From positions 1 to 64,000 of the forward strand of contig MWDE01000004.1 of the NCBI GenBank assembly GCA_002070395.1: a DNA stretch of 64,000 nucleotides, given 5' to 3'. Position numbers and translations under genes: made by a program. The DNA comes from Synergistetes bacterium ADurb.Bin155 (GTDB lineage: Bacteria > Synergistota > Synergistia > Synergistales > Thermovirgaceae). The notes beneath the pieces were generated by a model. It had not been told where the DNA came from. It ran no database searches and was given only the letters and a program-made list of their open reading frames with translations. Shown here in pieces: positions 3,257 to 20,250 of the stretch. The stretch's first letter is position 1, and every line of letters begins with the position of its first letter.

Positions 3257-4300
3257 ATGGCTGACACGAGAAGAATGGCCCAATTGGTGGAGAGGATAGA
3301 GTCCATACTCGGATCGGGCGAGGTGACCGATATACATCTCACCGCCGATGAGAGGATATGGGTGAGGTCCACGCGGGGCGAAATGGCGAGGCTCGCCGGC
3401 CCCGGCCAGGGGTGCAGGCCGTCGGGAGAGACGCTGGATGAACTGCATGGTGCCCTTTCAGGGGTTGACCGGCCCGACTATATCGCCGTCTTCCCTTCCG
3501 GCAAGAGGGTGCGCGTCAGGAGAACCTATTCCCTGGGCCGATCCCAACTCTTCCTCAGGGCTTTCTTCAATGAGATCCCTTCCGTGAAGGATCTAGGCAT
3601 CGACGGTTTCTTCCGGGAGGCTTTCACTATCCGCCCCGGCATCATCTGGATCTGCGGCCCTGTGGGCAGCGGCAAGACGACGCTCCTGGCGTCGCTGCTT
3701 TCGTGGTACGTCCAAAACGAGCCCCGCCACATTGTGACCATCGAGGACCCCGTCGAGTACGTCCTCGGCGAGGGCATGGGGATCGTCTCCCAAAGGCAAC
3801 TCGGCGACGACGTGGAGTCCTTCGCCCTGGGGGTGAGGAACAGCCTGAGGGAGGACCCCGATATAATAATGATCGGCGAAGTGAGGGACCCCGACACGGT
3901 GTCAGCGGCCCTTTCGGCGGCGGAGACGGGACACCTGGTCCTCGCGACCATCCACGCCCCCAATGTGGCCGGGATCATGGAGCGCGCCATCGGCATGTTC
4001 CCTCCGGGGGACAGGCAGGATAAGTGCATAAGGCTATCCCAGACGTTCTTCGGTGCCGTGGCTCTGCGGCTGGCCAACTCAGAAAAGGGGAGGGTCTGGC
4101 TCCACGAGGTGGCCTGGGGCGACCCGGCCATCAGGAACCATATAAGGGAGGGCAAACCCCACCAGATCCCCAGTTCCATTGAAATGAGGAAGGACGCCGG
4201 GATGCACACGCTGCTACAGAATATCAAGGAAGCCGTGAAGAAGGGGAGGATCACCGAGGAGGAAGCAAAGAAGCACATGCTCCTCGGCGATAGCTTGTGA
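3257..4300 (+). CDS. pilT: PilT-type pilus retraction ATPase
   Basis: This 347-aa protein is a type IV pilus retraction ATPase of the secretion ATPase superfamily. An N-terminal PAS-like region is followed by the RecA core with Walker A GPVGSGKTT (about 133-141), the IEDPVEYV Asp-box region, Walker B DPDIIMIGEVRD (about 203) and the His-box TGHLVLATIHAP. PilT hexamers work at the cytoplasmic base of the pilus. The gene stands alone: no pilB, pilC or pilM-Q is next to it, although a pilin-like gene lies at 19246-20250. GGGAGGGG precedes the ATG. Length matches the family. Confidence 0.92.
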   Translation: MADTRRMAQLVERIESILGSGEVTDIHLTADERIWVRSTRGEMARLAGPGQGCRPSGETLDELHGALSGVDRPDYIAVFPSGKRVRVRRTYSLGRSQLFLRAFFNEIPSVKDLGIDGFFREAFTIRPGIIWICGPVGSGKTTLLASLLSWYVQNEPRHIVTIEDPVEYVLGEGMGIVSQRQLGDDVESFALGVRNSLREDPDIIMIGEVRDPDTVSAALSAAETGHLVLATIHAPNVAGIMERAIGMFPPGDRQDKCIRLSQTFFGAVALRLANSEKGRVWLHEVAWGDPAIRNHIREGKPHQIPSSIEMRKDAGMHTLLQNIKEAVKKGRITEEEAKKHMLLGDSL

Positions 4301-11209: not shown

Positions 11210-12483
11210 ATCTGGTTGTAATCTTTTCAGGACTATTTCATCGAACTTTCGGCATACAGAGAGCAGGGTCGAAGTATGCCTTGTTCTTCATGATCCCGTA
11301 CATAATATGGAGCATTTTCCTCATGCAGGCCGTTATTGCAACCATCTTTTTCTTGCCCTTCTCCAGGAGCTTTTCATAGAAGCTTTTTATTACAGGGTTG
11401 CACCTTATTGCTGCGAGTGTCGGCATGTAGAGGATCTGTCTTAGTTTCTTCGACCCTTTTTTGCATATTTGAGCTTTGCCCCTTATGGATGTACCTGACT
11501 GTTTTTCCATGGGCGAAAGTCCAGCATAGGCGACTATCTGCTTTATTCCATCAAACCTTTCTATTTCTCCTATCTCTGAAACAAAGCACGTCGCAGTCAG
11601 ATCCGATATGCCTGGTATGGACTTAAGCCTTTCTATGTCCTTTTCGATATCCGGGAAATTACCATGCTTGATATTGTCTTTCAGTATCGCCTCCAGTTCC
11701 TTTATCTGTCGGGACAGGTAGGCCACATGATCTTCAAGGATCTTCATTGCATGGGGTGAATTGTCCGGGTTTTGTTCCAGACCTTCTATCCTGTTTTTCT
11801 CCATGTTCTTCATGGTCAAGAGGCTTTCTCTCAGTCGCACAAGCTGTTTCAGCTCCTCGTGCTCTTTACGGGAAGGGAACCAGGGCCTGAATAGACCATT
11901 TTCAACTCCGTCCCTGATGCACATGGCAATGATCCTTGAATCCTGCAGGTCTGTCTTGGTTCTGCTTCCCCTGTACTCCATGTATTTCTTGACCTTGTTG
12001 GGGTTGATGACGTAGGGGGTTACCCCGTCTACCTTCTTGTAAAGAAACTTCACAAGTTTCAGGTAATATGTCCCGGTGGCCTCCATGCCTGCATAGATCT
12101 GGTATTCTTTTGCGAGATTCAACGTTACCCCGGTTACTGCTTTCATCATTTCCCTGAAACCTGAAAGCTGATTCTTGAAGGACCCCCGGAACAGTTCCTT
12201 TTCTTCATCATCCATAAGGGTTGCAACTATTTCCGACTTGCCCACGTCAAGACCAAGAAAGAACCGAACCATTTTCATGATAAGCACCACCCTGGTTGTA
12301 TTACAGGTCGGGGAAAAGCTCCACCAAAACCGACTCATTCATTCAAGCTCAAAGGCCTAAGGATACCGTTCGTTTTTGAGGTGGAACGGGAGATCTATCT
12401 CTGCGACAGGTTTAAAAACCTTGGACACAAACCGATCTTTCCCCTTCCTGTGATGTATGTTTCCTAAAAGTTTACAACCAGAT
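11210..12483 (-). mobile_element. IS110-family (IS1111-like) insertion sequence with 12-bp inverted repeats
   Basis: ATCTGGTTGTAA at 11210-11221 and its exact reverse complement at 12472-12483 enclose one intact transposase gene. Short subterminal inverted repeats are characteristic of the IS1111 group of IS110 elements, so the true ends may lie a few bases outside these coordinates. No target duplication is obvious, as expected for this family. The element interrupts a stretch of intergenic repeats: type-B repeat sequence resumes at 12491. Base composition is visibly lower in GC than in the neighbouring genes. A partial third copy of the terminal motif (CTGGTTGTA) occurs at 12291-12299. Confidence 0.8.
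11238..12278 (-). CDS. IS110-family DEDD transposase
   Basis: This intact 346-aa transposase has the N-terminal RuvC-like DEDD domain (GLDVGKSEIVATL near residue 7, GMEATGTYY, SRTKTDLQDSRIIA). Its C-terminal Transposase_20 domain includes LKSIPGISDLTA, IVAYAGLSPMEKQSG and the nucleophile region SIRGKAQICKKGSKKLRQIL. The start is taken at the ATG giving MKMVRFFLGLDVG; in-frame codons further upstream are not conserved. It sits inside the 12-bp inverted repeats at 11210 and 12483. Its AT-richer codon use contrasts with the host genes, as expected for a mobile element. Confidence 0.93.
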   Translation of the reverse strand: MKMVRFFLGLDVGKSEIVATLMDDEEKELFRGSFKNQLSGFREMMKAVTGVTLNLAKEYQIYAGMEATGTYYLKLVKFLYKKVDGVTPYVINPNKVKKYMEYRGSRTKTDLQDSRIIAMCIRDGVENGLFRPWFPSRKEHEELKQLVRLRESLLTMKNMEKNRIEGLEQNPDNSPHAMKILEDHVAYLSRQIKELEAILKDNIKHGNFPDIEKDIERLKSIPGISDLTATCFVSEIGEIERFDGIKQIVAYAGLSPMEKQSGTSIRGKAQICKKGSKKLRQILYMPTLAAIRCNPVIKSFYEKLLEKGKKKMVAITACMRKMLHIMYGIMKNKAYFDPALCMPKVR

Positions 12484-14055: not shown

Positions 14056-15930
14056 CTATTTTATTTTCCTGAAAGTATTGACATCGTCCAGCCATCGGTT
14101 GTCATCATTATGATGCATGGCCTTTTCGGAACCATCCAGGACCTTGTCCCATGAAGGGACATCCTCCAGCTTTCCGCTGAACTTTTCTCTTTTTCCTGGA
14201 ATGACGAAACGGGTATTGGTTATTCTGAAGTTCCCGGGCAGACATGTCTCGTCCCACCCTGGATTGTCCTTCACCCTCTCAAGGGAAAACCGCCACGACC
14301 AGGGGATGGTCTCGATCGGCAGCCAGATGGCCTTCCCGTCGGGCCCGGGCCTTATAAGAAGGGTAGTGCGGAAATCCTGGAAATGATGGATATTCAGGGT
14401 CAGTGGACCGATCTCGTCGCTGGGAACATCGTTTATTTCAAGGCTTTCCTTCCCTTCGAGCCCGGCGTAGGGGAACCTTGTGTCAAGAGAGAAATTCTCC
14501 GACACAAGCTGGAAGTAGTCTCCTCCCTGTTGCCCGAACCTGCCTTTCCTTTCGAGGATGTTCTCCCTGAGCAACTGGACATAGCAGATGGAGTGTTCCG
14601 CCTCTTCCTTTTCGAAACCGGCCGGGAATCTTGCCTTGCCCTTGATCTCCATCCCCGGGATGGACAAGGGCGGGGCTATCCTTCCGAGGTATGCCGAGCA
14701 TCCTTTACCCGAGGAAACGCCACCTATGGAAACCCTCTTTTCCGGGATGACGTCGATGTCCGCTTCGGGGGAAAATACTTTCACCGTCCCTTTTGCTTCG
14801 ACCTTTTCCCCCTTTATCGTCGCAGCATAAGCTATCTTTTGGTCTTTGCCCTGGAAAGCCCCGTCCAGGCAGTAGAATTCGATCCGCCTCCTTCGTTTTT
14901 CTTCTTCGGCCAGTGGGATAGCCTTACCCGTGGCGAAGTTCCCGCGGTCATACCCCTCGAGGCCCGCGATAAAAGAGGGCGGGAGCTCCCACTGCCCTGC
15001 TGAGGCTTCATCGGCCTGGGGGTAAACTTCCGCCTCGAGCCTTACCTTCCTTCCTGCCATTACCTCGATCTCTTCACCGGTGAATTCGACCCTTTCGGTC
15101 TCCTTTACCCAGTAAAGGGCTACCACTGGTTCAATTTCCCCGAAGGTCCATGAGAAAGTCACGCTGCCGTGTTTTTTCGTACCTGGTTCCGGGCCGTAAT
15201 GGATCTTTTCCCCGACCGCGAAAAGAGATGCCCCGCTTTTTGGCGGATCCTCAGCATCCCAGGAATAACTGCCGGTCAACCCGGTAATGCCCATTTCCGA
15301 AACAGCGTTTGCAGCAAGGGCCAGATCAAGGGTCTTTGTGAACAGGGTTTCGCACCCGCTCACCTCTTCCACCGATGCCGTAACCGGGACCATAAGGAAG
15401 AAGGAGTAAACAGTCCTGTCGGGATCATTCGCCATTTTCTCGATAAGGCCTTCGGGGTCGAGGATAACCGGGTCTGCCGTAGCTTGAAGAAATGCGCCGA
15501 CTCCAAGCGGGCCGGTGAAGGACTGCAAGAAGAGAGATGCCTTGTCGGTTCCCGGCTCAAAACCGACATCAATGGAACCGGAAGCAAAGACCTTGCCTAT
15601 CTCCCCTCGGCATTCGCTCTCTTCGTCGGATGGGCGGGCTATGATAGATTCATCGTAACGGTAGGAAGCCGTGACGCCCGTAGGGATGTAATGGGAGAAA
15701 AAGATGCTGTCGCCTGCGCTCCTGACCATCTGTCCCGAGACATGTAAGCTGCACGATCCCGTCTCGAAAAGTTGGGAATCCCCTTCATCGGTGTTCCAGG
15801 ACGCTTCCAGGTGGATCGACACTGGAATACTGTCGGGAAGTGCTCCTTGCGCACCCGAATGAATGCCGACAAGTACAGCGCAAGCGAGCAGGACCGTAAG
15901 GGCGATACGTTCAACTGCTCTGTTGAACAT
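14056..15930 (-). CDS. Large secreted protein of unknown function
   Basis: This 624-aa protein is not recognised. An N-terminal Sec signal peptide is visible (hydrophobic residues about 9-28, probable cleavage near AQGALP), so it is likely periplasmic or surface-exposed. The body is rich in short beta-type segments with scattered Cys residues; no catalytic motif is apparent. It begins 11 bp after the stop of the OmpA-family gene and is probably co-transcribed with it, suggesting an envelope-associated pair. Codon use looks less GC-biased than in the flanking housekeeping genes, and decayed regulator remnants bracket the pair, which suggests an acquired island. Confidence 0.7.
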   Translation of the reverse strand: MFNRAVERIALTVLLACAVLVGIHSGAQGALPDSIPVSIHLEASWNTDEGDSQLFETGSCSLHVSGQMVRSAGDSIFFSHYIPTGVTASYRYDESIIARPSDEESECRGEIGKVFASGSIDVGFEPGTDKASLFLQSFTGPLGVGAFLQATADPVILDPEGLIEKMANDPDRTVYSFFLMVPVTASVEEVSGCETLFTKTLDLALAANAVSEMGITGLTGSYSWDAEDPPKSGASLFAVGEKIHYGPEPGTKKHGSVTFSWTFGEIEPVVALYWVKETERVEFTGEEIEVMAGRKVRLEAEVYPQADEASAGQWELPPSFIAGLEGYDRGNFATGKAIPLAEEEKRRRRIEFYCLDGAFQGKDQKIAYAATIKGEKVEAKGTVKVFSPEADIDVIPEKRVSIGGVSSGKGCSAYLGRIAPPLSIPGMEIKGKARFPAGFEKEEAEHSICYVQLLRENILERKGRFGQQGGDYFQLVSENFSLDTRFPYAGLEGKESLEINDVPSDEIGPLTLNIHHFQDFRTTLLIRPGPDGKAIWLPIETIPWSWRFSLERVKDNPGWDETCLPGNFRITNTRFVIPGKREKFSGKLEDVPSWDKVLDGSEKAMHHNDDNRWLDDVNTFRKIK

Positions 15931-15941
15931 GGCGTTGGGCC

Positions 15942-16760
15942 TTAAAGCAGGACCAGGTCGACCCTGCGGTTTTTAGCCCTTCCCGATGCCGTTTCATTGT
16001 CGGCTACCGGGCGTGATTCTCCAAAACCCTCGTATTCAAGACGCTCGGGTTCAATACCCTTTTCTACAAGTGACTGAACCACCGCCATGGCTCGGTCCTT
16101 CGAAAGCGCGAGGTTATCGGCTTCATTCCCGACCGAATCGGTATGACCTTCCACCTTGAGCCTCATCCGGCCATCCTCGGTCATCATCTGGAAGATCTCG
16201 TCGATGATCACCTGTGATTCAGTCCTGATGACAGCCTTGCCGGTATCAAAATGGATGGAAAGGGATACCCTTCCTGCGGTTTTCAGGGTCCGGGCCATTT
16301 CATCGGCGGAGATCCGCTGTTGAGCCACTCCCTTTTCGACGATGACCAGCCAATAGGTCTGGCCGTCACCCTGGCTCATGACCTCCGCCCAGGTCTCTGT
16401 GCTGTCCTGTTGAAGCGTCAGGTAGGTCATATCCTCCCTGTGACGGTAAAAACTGCCTCCTGCTCCCGAAGCGGCCCTTTCGTAGTTCATTATCACGAAA
16501 AGATCGCCCGGAGGCGGCTCCCCTTCGTTGATATCGTATTCGATCTGGATACGGCGTCCTTCCACCGTCAGATAGTTGCCTTCGGGGTCGATAAAGTCGT
16601 GTGAACCGAATTCGACCTCCTGGTAGTCTCCTATGTAGTAACCCGTGATCCGGGGCAGAAGCGGGTAATCCTTGCTTCCGGGCACATCGGATGGGAACGC
16701 CGGAAAAGCGAAAAGGGAGACAAGAACGGCAATGAATATTACTCTTACTGGACATCTCAC
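15942..16760 (-). CDS. OmpA-family peptidoglycan-binding protein
   Basis: This 272-aa exported protein has a signal peptide (residues 1-23, ending FPAFPS), a novel N-terminal region, and a C-terminal OmpA-like domain. That domain contains SLSIHFDTGKAVI (about 165-177), KVEGHTDSVGNEADNLALSKDRA (about 200) and GFGESRPVADNETASGRAKNRRVDL (about 245), which matches the peptidoglycan-binding consensus. It probably anchors an outer-membrane or periplasmic complex to the cell wall. The start is GTG with GGGAGGTG upstream. The next gene downstream is the 624-aa secreted protein, a likely partner. Confidence 0.88.
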   Translation of the reverse strand: MRCPVRVIFIAVLVSLFAFPAFPSDVPGSKDYPLLPRITGYYIGDYQEVEFGSHDFIDPEGNYLTVEGRRIQIEYDINEGEPPPGDLFVIMNYERAASGAGGSFYRHREDMTYLTLQQDSTETWAEVMSQGDGQTYWLVIVEKGVAQQRISADEMARTLKTAGRVSLSIHFDTGKAVIRTESQVIIDEIFQMMTEDGRMRLKVEGHTDSVGNEADNLALSKDRAMAVVQSLVEKGIEPERLEYEGFGESRPVADNETASGRAKNRRVDLVLL

Positions 16761-18779: not shown

Positions 18780-19220
18780 CTAGGGTGCTTTTCCCTCCAG
18801 GACCACGGTGTCGCCGGGGCTCACCCCGCCGCCGGTCAATACCTTAAGGAAATAGCCCACCGTCGGCAGGAGGCACCACCCCCGGTAGTCGTAGGAGTGG
18901 GGCTCATCGGGCCTTTTCCCCTTTTCGACCACTTCCAGGACGACCTCGGTCCCAATCCTGAGCAATGATCCGGGGGCCAGTTCCGCCGGCAGCCCCCGGA
19001 CCACGAGGTTCTCCGCCAGGGAACCGGGGGGGAAGGGGAAACCGGCCTTGGATTCCGCCAGGGCCAAATCCTCGGAGCGGAGGAGGCTCACCTGGCGGTC
19101 CCCCATACCGAAATGCCCGTCGCCGGCGATGCCCATCCCCTCGACGAAGCGGGCCGCTTCAAGGGCGTTCTTGGCTTTCTGCCGGTCCTCGCCGGCGCAG
19201 ACAGCAATTATCATAGCCAT
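18780..19220 (-). CDS. MOSC-domain protein
   Basis: This 146-aa stand-alone MOSC domain protein has the family core GIAGDGHFG and DRQVSLLRSEDL (about 30-52) and GSLAENLVVRGL. MOSC proteins are thought to carry sulfur for molybdenum cofactor or related metal-sulfur chemistry. The characteristic Cys is represented by the YRGWCLLPTVGYF block near residue 115. GGGGAGGG precedes the ATG. It is convergent with otsB and upstream of the pilin-like gene on the same strand. Confidence 0.88.
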   Translation of the reverse strand: MAMIIAVCAGEDRQKAKNALEAARFVEGMGIAGDGHFGMGDRQVSLLRSEDLALAESKAGFPFPPGSLAENLVVRGLPAELAPGSLLRIGTEVVLEVVEKGKRPDEPHSYDYRGWCLLPTVGYFLKVLTGGGVSPGDTVVLEGKAP

Positions 19221-19245: not shown

Positions 19246-20250
19246 TCAAGGGATCAACTCCCAGGCGTCGGATGACCCCGGCGGGTCCTCCCCGGGGTCA
19301 ACGTACCATTTAGCCCTGTATTGCTTCCCGTTATAAAAAACTGAATCGCCGCCGGCATATTTGTTCGATGCGACCCATTGGTCGGTGCCGATCTGTTGCC
19401 ACGGGGAACCCACCGTGCCGGGGGTGTTATCTTTCGTCCAGTTCCAGGCCTGGTACTGTTTCCCCTCGTAAACTACGATGTCTCCCTGTTTGTACTCGTT
19501 GAAGTCTCTCCATTCATCGGTGATCTCCTGCCAGGGGCTGTCCATCAGGCCTGGTTGATTCCCCCGGGTCCAGTAGCGGGCCTCGAAGACCTTGCCGTCG
19601 AATTCGACCCGTTCGCCTCCCAGGTAAGCCCGGCCGCTGTCCCATGTATCATGATCGGGGCGGGTGCCGCCGGTGTCCGACCCGGGGCCCTGGCCGGTGC
19701 CGCCGCCGGGGCCTTCCGGCCCGGAGTGATCATCCTCTCCGCCTTCGTCGGATCCCGGCCCGATGTCCTTTACCCTCACAGCCACGACGGGGTCGGCGCG
19801 ATAGGGCTCCAGATCTCCGTTGAGGAGGCCGTACTCGGAGGAGTCCCTTTCCAGGAACTTCCTTATGCGGGTAGAACCGCCGAATTCGTCGGCCACTCTC
19901 GCGGCGGCGTAAACAGTCCCCAGGGCTTCGTGCCTCTTGATGGCGTAGACCCCCGAATCCTCGTCCCAGGCCTGGAGTTGGATGTGGCCTGTCATGTAGG
20001 CGTTGAGCCTTTCGTAGTCGCTCTCTCCGGGCCAGCGGCCGTTATCGGAGAAGAACAGCATGGCCGTCCTCTTGAGGGTCATCAGGTCCGAGACGATCCT
20101 CGTCGCGGCGGACCGGTCCCTCGATATGCCCGAGGTCAAAAGCAGGTTCCCGGCGAGGATGGCTATGATAAGTATCGTGAGGAGGATCTCCACCAGGGTG
20201 AAGCCCCGTTTTGACCTTGACAACTCGGCTAACCCCCCCGCGTCCGTCAT
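19246..20250 (-). CDS. Type IV pilin-like protein carrying three CBM5/12-type carbohydrate-binding repeats
   Basis: This 334-aa protein has a class III prepilin leader cleaved after Gly16 (RG|FTLVEILLTILIIAILAG), giving the hydrophobic pilin helix, then a pilin-like region with NGRWPGESDYE typical of pseudopilins. A Gly/Pro/Asp-rich linker (about 165-200) leads to three tandem repeats at about 201-243, 244-287 and 288-334. Each has W...Y..G..V.(Y/F).GK.(Y/F).A..(W/Y)...P......W..I, which matches CBM5/12 chitin-binding type modules. The protein could be displayed at or near a pilus tip to bind chitin-like or other beta-glycans. No other pilus assembly genes are adjacent. Confidence 0.82.
   Translation of the reverse strand: MTDAGGLAELSRSKRGFTLVEILLTILIIAILAGNLLLTSGISRDRSAATRIVSDLMTLKRTAMLFFSDNGRWPGESDYERLNAYMTGHIQLQAWDEDSGVYAIKRHEALGTVYAAARVADEFGGSTRIRKFLERDSSEYGLLNGDLEPYRADPVVAVRVKDIGPGSDEGGEDDHSGPEGPGGGTGQGPGSDTGGTRPDHDTWDSGRAYLGGERVEFDGKVFEARYWTRGNQPGLMDSPWQEITDEWRDFNEYKQGDIVVYEGKQYQAWNWTKDNTPGTVGSPWQQIGTDQWVASNKYAGGDSVFYNGKQYRAKWYVDPGEDPPGSSDAWELIP

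Follow-up and report, generated by a model that had tools for sequence, protein, structure and literature searches.

The window, by which we mean the whole stretch of 64,000 nucleotides that was analyzed, carries on its minus strand a solitary gene for a modular prepilin, hereafter the CBM-pilin, which lies outside any pilus operon. Its parts, together with two further genes that bear on its interpretation, are as follows:

19246 to 20250, minus strand: modular prepilin gene, 334 amino acids; intact open reading frame with ATG start; Pfam matches to N_methyl and three times to CBM_5_12
20203 to 20250, minus strand: 16-residue prepilin leader MTDAGGLAELSRSKRG, with predicted cleavage between Gly and Phe and Glu at +5 (sequence; N_methyl/TIGR02532)
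19756 to 20202, minus strand: mature pilin body, residues 17-165, a long N-terminal helix and small head (orthology; low confidence in the structural model)
19651 to 19755, minus strand: flexible Gly/Pro/Asp/Glu linker, residues 166-200 (sequence; pLDDT <50)
19522 to 19650, minus strand: CBM5/12 module 1, residues 201-243, aromatic pair Y226-W227 (Pfam; pLDDT >80)
19384 to 19515, minus strand: CBM5/12 module 2, residues 246-289, W269-N270-W271 at the pair position (Pfam; pLDDT ~86-92)
19249 to 19380, minus strand: CBM5/12 module 3, residues 291-334, aromatic pair W315-Y316 (Pfam; phmmer; pLDDT ~86-94)
18780 to 19220, minus strand: MOSC-domain gene, 25 bp downstream of the CBM-pilin gene (Pfam MOSC; same order in genomes G001, G004, and G005)
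3257 to 4300, plus strand: paralogue of the PilT ATPase (PF00437, E=1e-38)

The MOSC gene is a conserved marker of the locus and has no part in the function of the CBM-pilin. Promoter and terminator scans returned nothing beyond consensus matches of no weight, and the GC content of the CBM-encoding part (0.585) is near that of the window (0.607), with no clear foreign signature. Elsewhere in the window, an IS110-family transposase is encoded at 11238-12338 (minus strand), and a 624-residue protein without a Pfam hit adjoins an OmpA-family protein at 14056-16760 (minus strand).

The N-terminus exhibits all the elements of a class III signal peptide, namely the cleavage motif RSKRG/FTLVE (the slash marking the G/F cleavage site), the Glu at position 5, and the hydrophobic helix. 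N_methyl matched residues 12-34 with 27.1 bits, above its cut-off of 21.2, and TIGR02532 also exceeded its threshold (25.8 against 16.3 bits). The pseudopilin-like region with NGRWPGESDYE and the Gly/Pro/Asp linker, both described in an earlier sequence-only reading of this DNA, were recovered as described. Profile comparison revealed a resemblance of the pilin body to GspG/PilA, which bears out the pseudopilin likeness in part; membership of GspG itself does not follow, as the GspG equivalog TIGR01710 scored 27.4 bits, far under its cut-off of 88.85. Neither does the gene hold the position directly after pilC that marks pilA in relatives, since it stands alone beside the MOSC gene. A GspG-like body could place the protein in a secretion pseudopilus or a DNA-uptake filament, a reading that we regard as highly improbable given the missed equivalog cut-off, the T4P type of the relatives' loci (with pilT, pilM-Q, and minor pilins), and the membership of CBM5/12 among glycan-binding families. 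Nothing was found to support the DNA uptake suggested earlier.

The presence of three tandem CBM5/12 modules, proposed from the repeats alone, was upheld by the profile search. CBM_5_12 (Pfam: PF02839) matched the 334-residue protein in three separate stretches with E=2.1e-23 and 82.5 bits against a cut-off of 26.2, which excludes a chance match, and each module also scored singly in a six-frame search of the genome (E of 6e-10, 2e-8, and 2e-6). The limits of the repeats had to be corrected, the modules starting at about residues 201/202, 246, and 291. Module 3 additionally matched the chitin-binding domain of chitinase C (2d49) in a phmmer search (E=4.3e-5). An AlphaFold model built from four sequences yielded the CBM trio at pLDDT 81-94; the pilin head was poorly modeled, and the model was not used for the low-confidence pilin body. 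The best fold matches in the PDB were modules of Vibrio chitin deacetylases, of tail fibre and baseplate proteins from phages of Agrobacterium, and of chitinase C of S. griseus, the latter (2d49) superposing with an rmsd of 1.5 and a TM-score (target) of 0.72. Each module keeps its core aromatics (Y209/W240, Y253/W284, and Y298/W330). A Y-W or W-W pair has been reported to matter for the binding of chitin by CBM5 (PMC8449059), and the corresponding position is occupied by Y226-W227 in module 1, by W-N-W in module 2, which is not a strict pair, and by W315-Y316 in module 3. By homology, these aromatics would be exposed at the binding surface.

In the same place as the CBM-pilin, amid DUF2284, MOSC, and trehalose-phosphatase genes, a genome of the same genus (G001) and another relative (G004) encode a pilin of 154-181 residues, and a third (G008) has an orthologous pilin with part of the window's gene neighborhood. 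The window's pilin body is 39-44% identical to these three pilins and forms a clade with them with a support of 100/99. All three end where the window's linker starts and have no CBMs. In a sister genus (G005), a stop and a deletion interrupt the pilin frame, after which GRQYRAKWYTVNSTPGSSSAWEIVP, corresponding to the end of a CBM module 3, appears in a different frame. This pseudogene, with its premature stop, internal deletion, and CBM5/12 tail in another frame, occupies about positions 6760-7175 of contig C137 (L009:1450-1870), and indicates that a pilin-CBM fusion was once present in this sister genus and then decayed.

The array also occurs on a different pilin. In genomes G023 and G031, the CBM-pilin gene directly follows pilC and is succeeded by a PilA-like pilin, pilV, pilW, pilX, a divergent PilY1, and pilM to pilQ. 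In sequence, G031 matches strain L-13 of the Synergistota, whose genome is closed (CP074691.1); the window's genome belongs to the order of G031. Between pilX and pilM, L-13 encodes an 846-residue protein (L103:9482-12022) without a Pfam hit, matching the C-terminal half of the relatives' PilY1. This strain, which we take to be an Aminithiophilus of the order Synergistales, has a full T4P locus. Compared position by position, the window (W) and G031-type (V) modules are 64% (W2/V2), 58% (W3/V3), and 51% (W1/V1) identical, W2/V1 also reaching 55%, whereas the modules within the window protein are only 29-42% identical to one another. A sister relationship between the pilin bodies of the window and G031 was rejected (AU p=0.006); a wider clade of the G031 body and all the locus orthologues was not (p=0.22). 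The CBM-pilins of G031 and G023 differ in a poly-Asp linker of GAC/GAT repeats (21 against 24 codons) and are identical over the rest of the open reading frame, and a selection test on this pair was uninformative because the DNA is identical outside the linker.

Beyond the phylum, a Peptococcaceae MAG (JAAYUV010000034.1) encodes a GspH-like prepilin that bears five CBM5/12 modules; its gene lies in a T4P operon (L104:5962-7260), with pilC on one side and pilV/W/X-type genes on the other. A pilin found in a Eubacteriales MAG has a truncated array, consisting of one module and the beginning of another. The last modules of all these CBM-pilins resemble one another with moderate support in the tree of these short modules. 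When 84,980 genomes were scanned for patterns drawn from the array alignment, a method that returns exact pattern matches only, three loci were found, all of them pilins; a single-protein scan of genome contigs and a scan of viral contigs with the array alignment gave no match. Judged from sequence, the array acts like a cassette: it has been attached to more than one kind of pilin and has been lost as well. The existence of close orthologues without CBMs, one array that is a pseudogene, and another that is truncated shows the trait to be dispensable. A broader proposal, which we put forward tentatively and hold at somewhat less than even weight, sees in the CBM5/12 array a mobile adhesin cassette. 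Transferred whole from one pilin to another, non-orthologous one, across phyla (Synergistota and Firmicutes), and frequently lost, it would let the sugar specificity of pili evolve by cassette swapping in bacteria without chitinases.

The sequence-only reading had suggested that a lone pilT at 3257 could retract such a fibre. This gene turned out to be a paralogue, about 38% identical to the canonical PilT, and need not be involved, since canonical pilB and pilT lie with a secretin gene on another contig (C1) of the source genome, a draft of 1.9 Mb in 80 contigs and 88% complete. The search for other pilus genes also recovered a prepilin peptidase, two sets of PilV/W/X-type minor pilins, and PilY1, all of them open frames. 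The minor-pilin sets lie on contigs C8 (L113:4977-10240) and C21 (L114:2136-3498), one of them with a PilY1 of 1237 residues. In relatives, pilC, pilA, pilM, pilN, pilO, and pilP intervene between PilT and the secretin; in the source genome, the region C1:18094-23130 (L066:8095-13131) instead runs from pilB and pilT into 16 codons of pilC, which are fused in frame to the latter half of pilP, followed by pilQ. The junction is clean and contains no N, and pilC, the pilC-linked pilA, and pilM/N/O were not found anywhere in the draft assembly, which leaves pilus assembly unproven in this genome.

One could thus suppose that the assembly core has been lost and that the CBM-pilin is an orphan, either a membrane-anchored glycan-binding surface protein or a decaying one. 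The missing genes and the clean in-frame junction are what such a loss would leave behind, and related arrays have indeed decayed (G005) or been cut short (the Eubacteriales MAG). However, the contigs of three congeners end at the same place, which favors an assembly fault in an 88%-complete draft over a true deletion, possible as the latter is, and open frames persist for PilB, PilT, the secretin, the prepilin peptidase, both minor-pilin sets, and PilY1. We therefore consider the orphan reading unlikely. Adhesion by a pilin, as previously proposed, is the best-supported function, homologous CBM-pilins being found within T4P operons of two other lineages; the working fibre that it presupposes is the part left unsupported by a draft in which pilC, the pilC-linked pilA, and pilM/N/O are missing.

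The CBM-pilin is probably an adhesin, a modular minor pilin of type IV that uses its CBMs to bind chitin or some other glycan containing GlcNAc. Its prepilin part would be cleaved by the prepilin peptidase and polymerized like any pilin, and the flexible linker of about 35 residues would keep the three modules clear of the fibre, probably at the tip. Long flexible linkers, rich in Gly, Pro, and acidic residues here and made of poly-Asp in G031 and G023, suit a free-swinging array. Alternatively, the protein could be the main filament subunit, present in many copies with CBMs all along a chitin-binding fibre. Its GspG/PilA-like body is compatible with this, as is the L-13 CBM-pilin gene directly after pilC, the place of pilA in relatives; yet in L-13 the next gene encodes a PilA-like pilin, relatives have a separate pilA after pilC, and an extension of 170 residues on every subunit would be bulky, so that a main-subunit role seems decidedly improbable. 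As a minor pilin, the protein would bind chitin or another GlcNAc polymer weakly through the exposed aromatics of each module, three in a row providing avidity, and the pilus would fasten the cell to GlcNAc-rich matter, whether of fungal, arthropod, or other origin, or to a biofilm matrix, without degrading it.

Across the order, CBM5/12 was detected in nine of 183 genomes, three of which owe it to these pilins. In five of the six others, the CBM protein or its neighbor matches a tail or other phage protein, while the CBM protein of the sixth, G069, received no assignment. The expectation that these modules normally sit on glycosidases did not hold in this order, where none was found on such enzymes and the other matches were mostly phage tail proteins. 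Likewise, no GH18 chitinase was found in the window's genome or ten relatives, so that the modules do not belong to a GH18 chitinase system in this case. The array weakly matches the PHROG tail-fibre family 9851. Descent of the array from the prophage tail CBMs of the order was considered but is not supported, the modules being too distant and the short-module tree lacking well-supported forks.

Chitin is the likeliest ligand, since the CBM5 modules of known structure bind it (PMC8449059). The modules may instead recognize the cell's own matrix or wall, such as a GlcNAc exopolysaccharide or peptidoglycan, serving cell-cell contact and pilus anchoring rather than binding of foreign chitin. PilA of M. 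xanthus binds chitosan and its own GlcN/GlcNAc-containing EPS (PMC12691611), and the source genome yielded no GH18 chitinase, both consistent with such a role; the binding of chitin by structurally known CBM5 modules points the other way, and we judge self-binding to be a minority prospect, if the least improbable of the alternatives considered here.

These observations would place a chitin-type adhesin on a pilus in anaerobes of a little-studied phylum without a detected GH18 chitinase. They also make the gain, movement, and loss of an adhesin cassette between pilins observable in one family, in which cassette swapping, a simple route for pili to change their binding target, can be tested. 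Modular type IV pilins, a class defined by an unrelated module grafted onto the pilin C-terminus (Raynaud et al. 2021, PMC8179133), are already known in outline to include carbohydrate-binding modules. CBM5/12 is not named in the main text of that survey of 264 architectures, and literature searches returned no paper on CBM5/12 pilins. What appears to be new is the CBM5/12 array itself, the fact that distinct pilins from two phyla carry it, and the fact that it has been lost repeatedly.

The modules share their fold and aromatic positions with the CBM5/12 (PF02839) of chitinases, chitin deacetylases, and LPMOs, but are borne by a pilin instead of an enzyme. The CBM5/12-like modules of phage tail fibers, as in the structures of phages 7-7-1 and Milano, represent the same module and likewise serve attachment without catalysis, whereas the prophage modules of the order are distant from the window's array, which pairs with the other pilin arrays. 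The CBM-pilins of L-13 and the Peptococcaceae MAG present the same succession of first, middle, and last modules on a prepilin, but on different pilin bodies and inside T4P operons, with a poly-Asp linker in L-13 and five modules in the Peptococcaceae. The closest functional precedents are PilB and PilC of S. sanguinis, modular pilins with measured adhesion or glycan binding (PMC8179133, PMC9934059), for which display at the pilus tip has been argued (PMC9934059). Like the window's protein, these combine a prepilin N-terminus and pilin body with a foreign binding module at the C-terminus (vWA in PilB, a lectin module in PilC, which binds glycans), from which the CBM-pilin differs in its three CBM5/12 repeats, its long flexible linker, its diderm phylum, and its lone locus.
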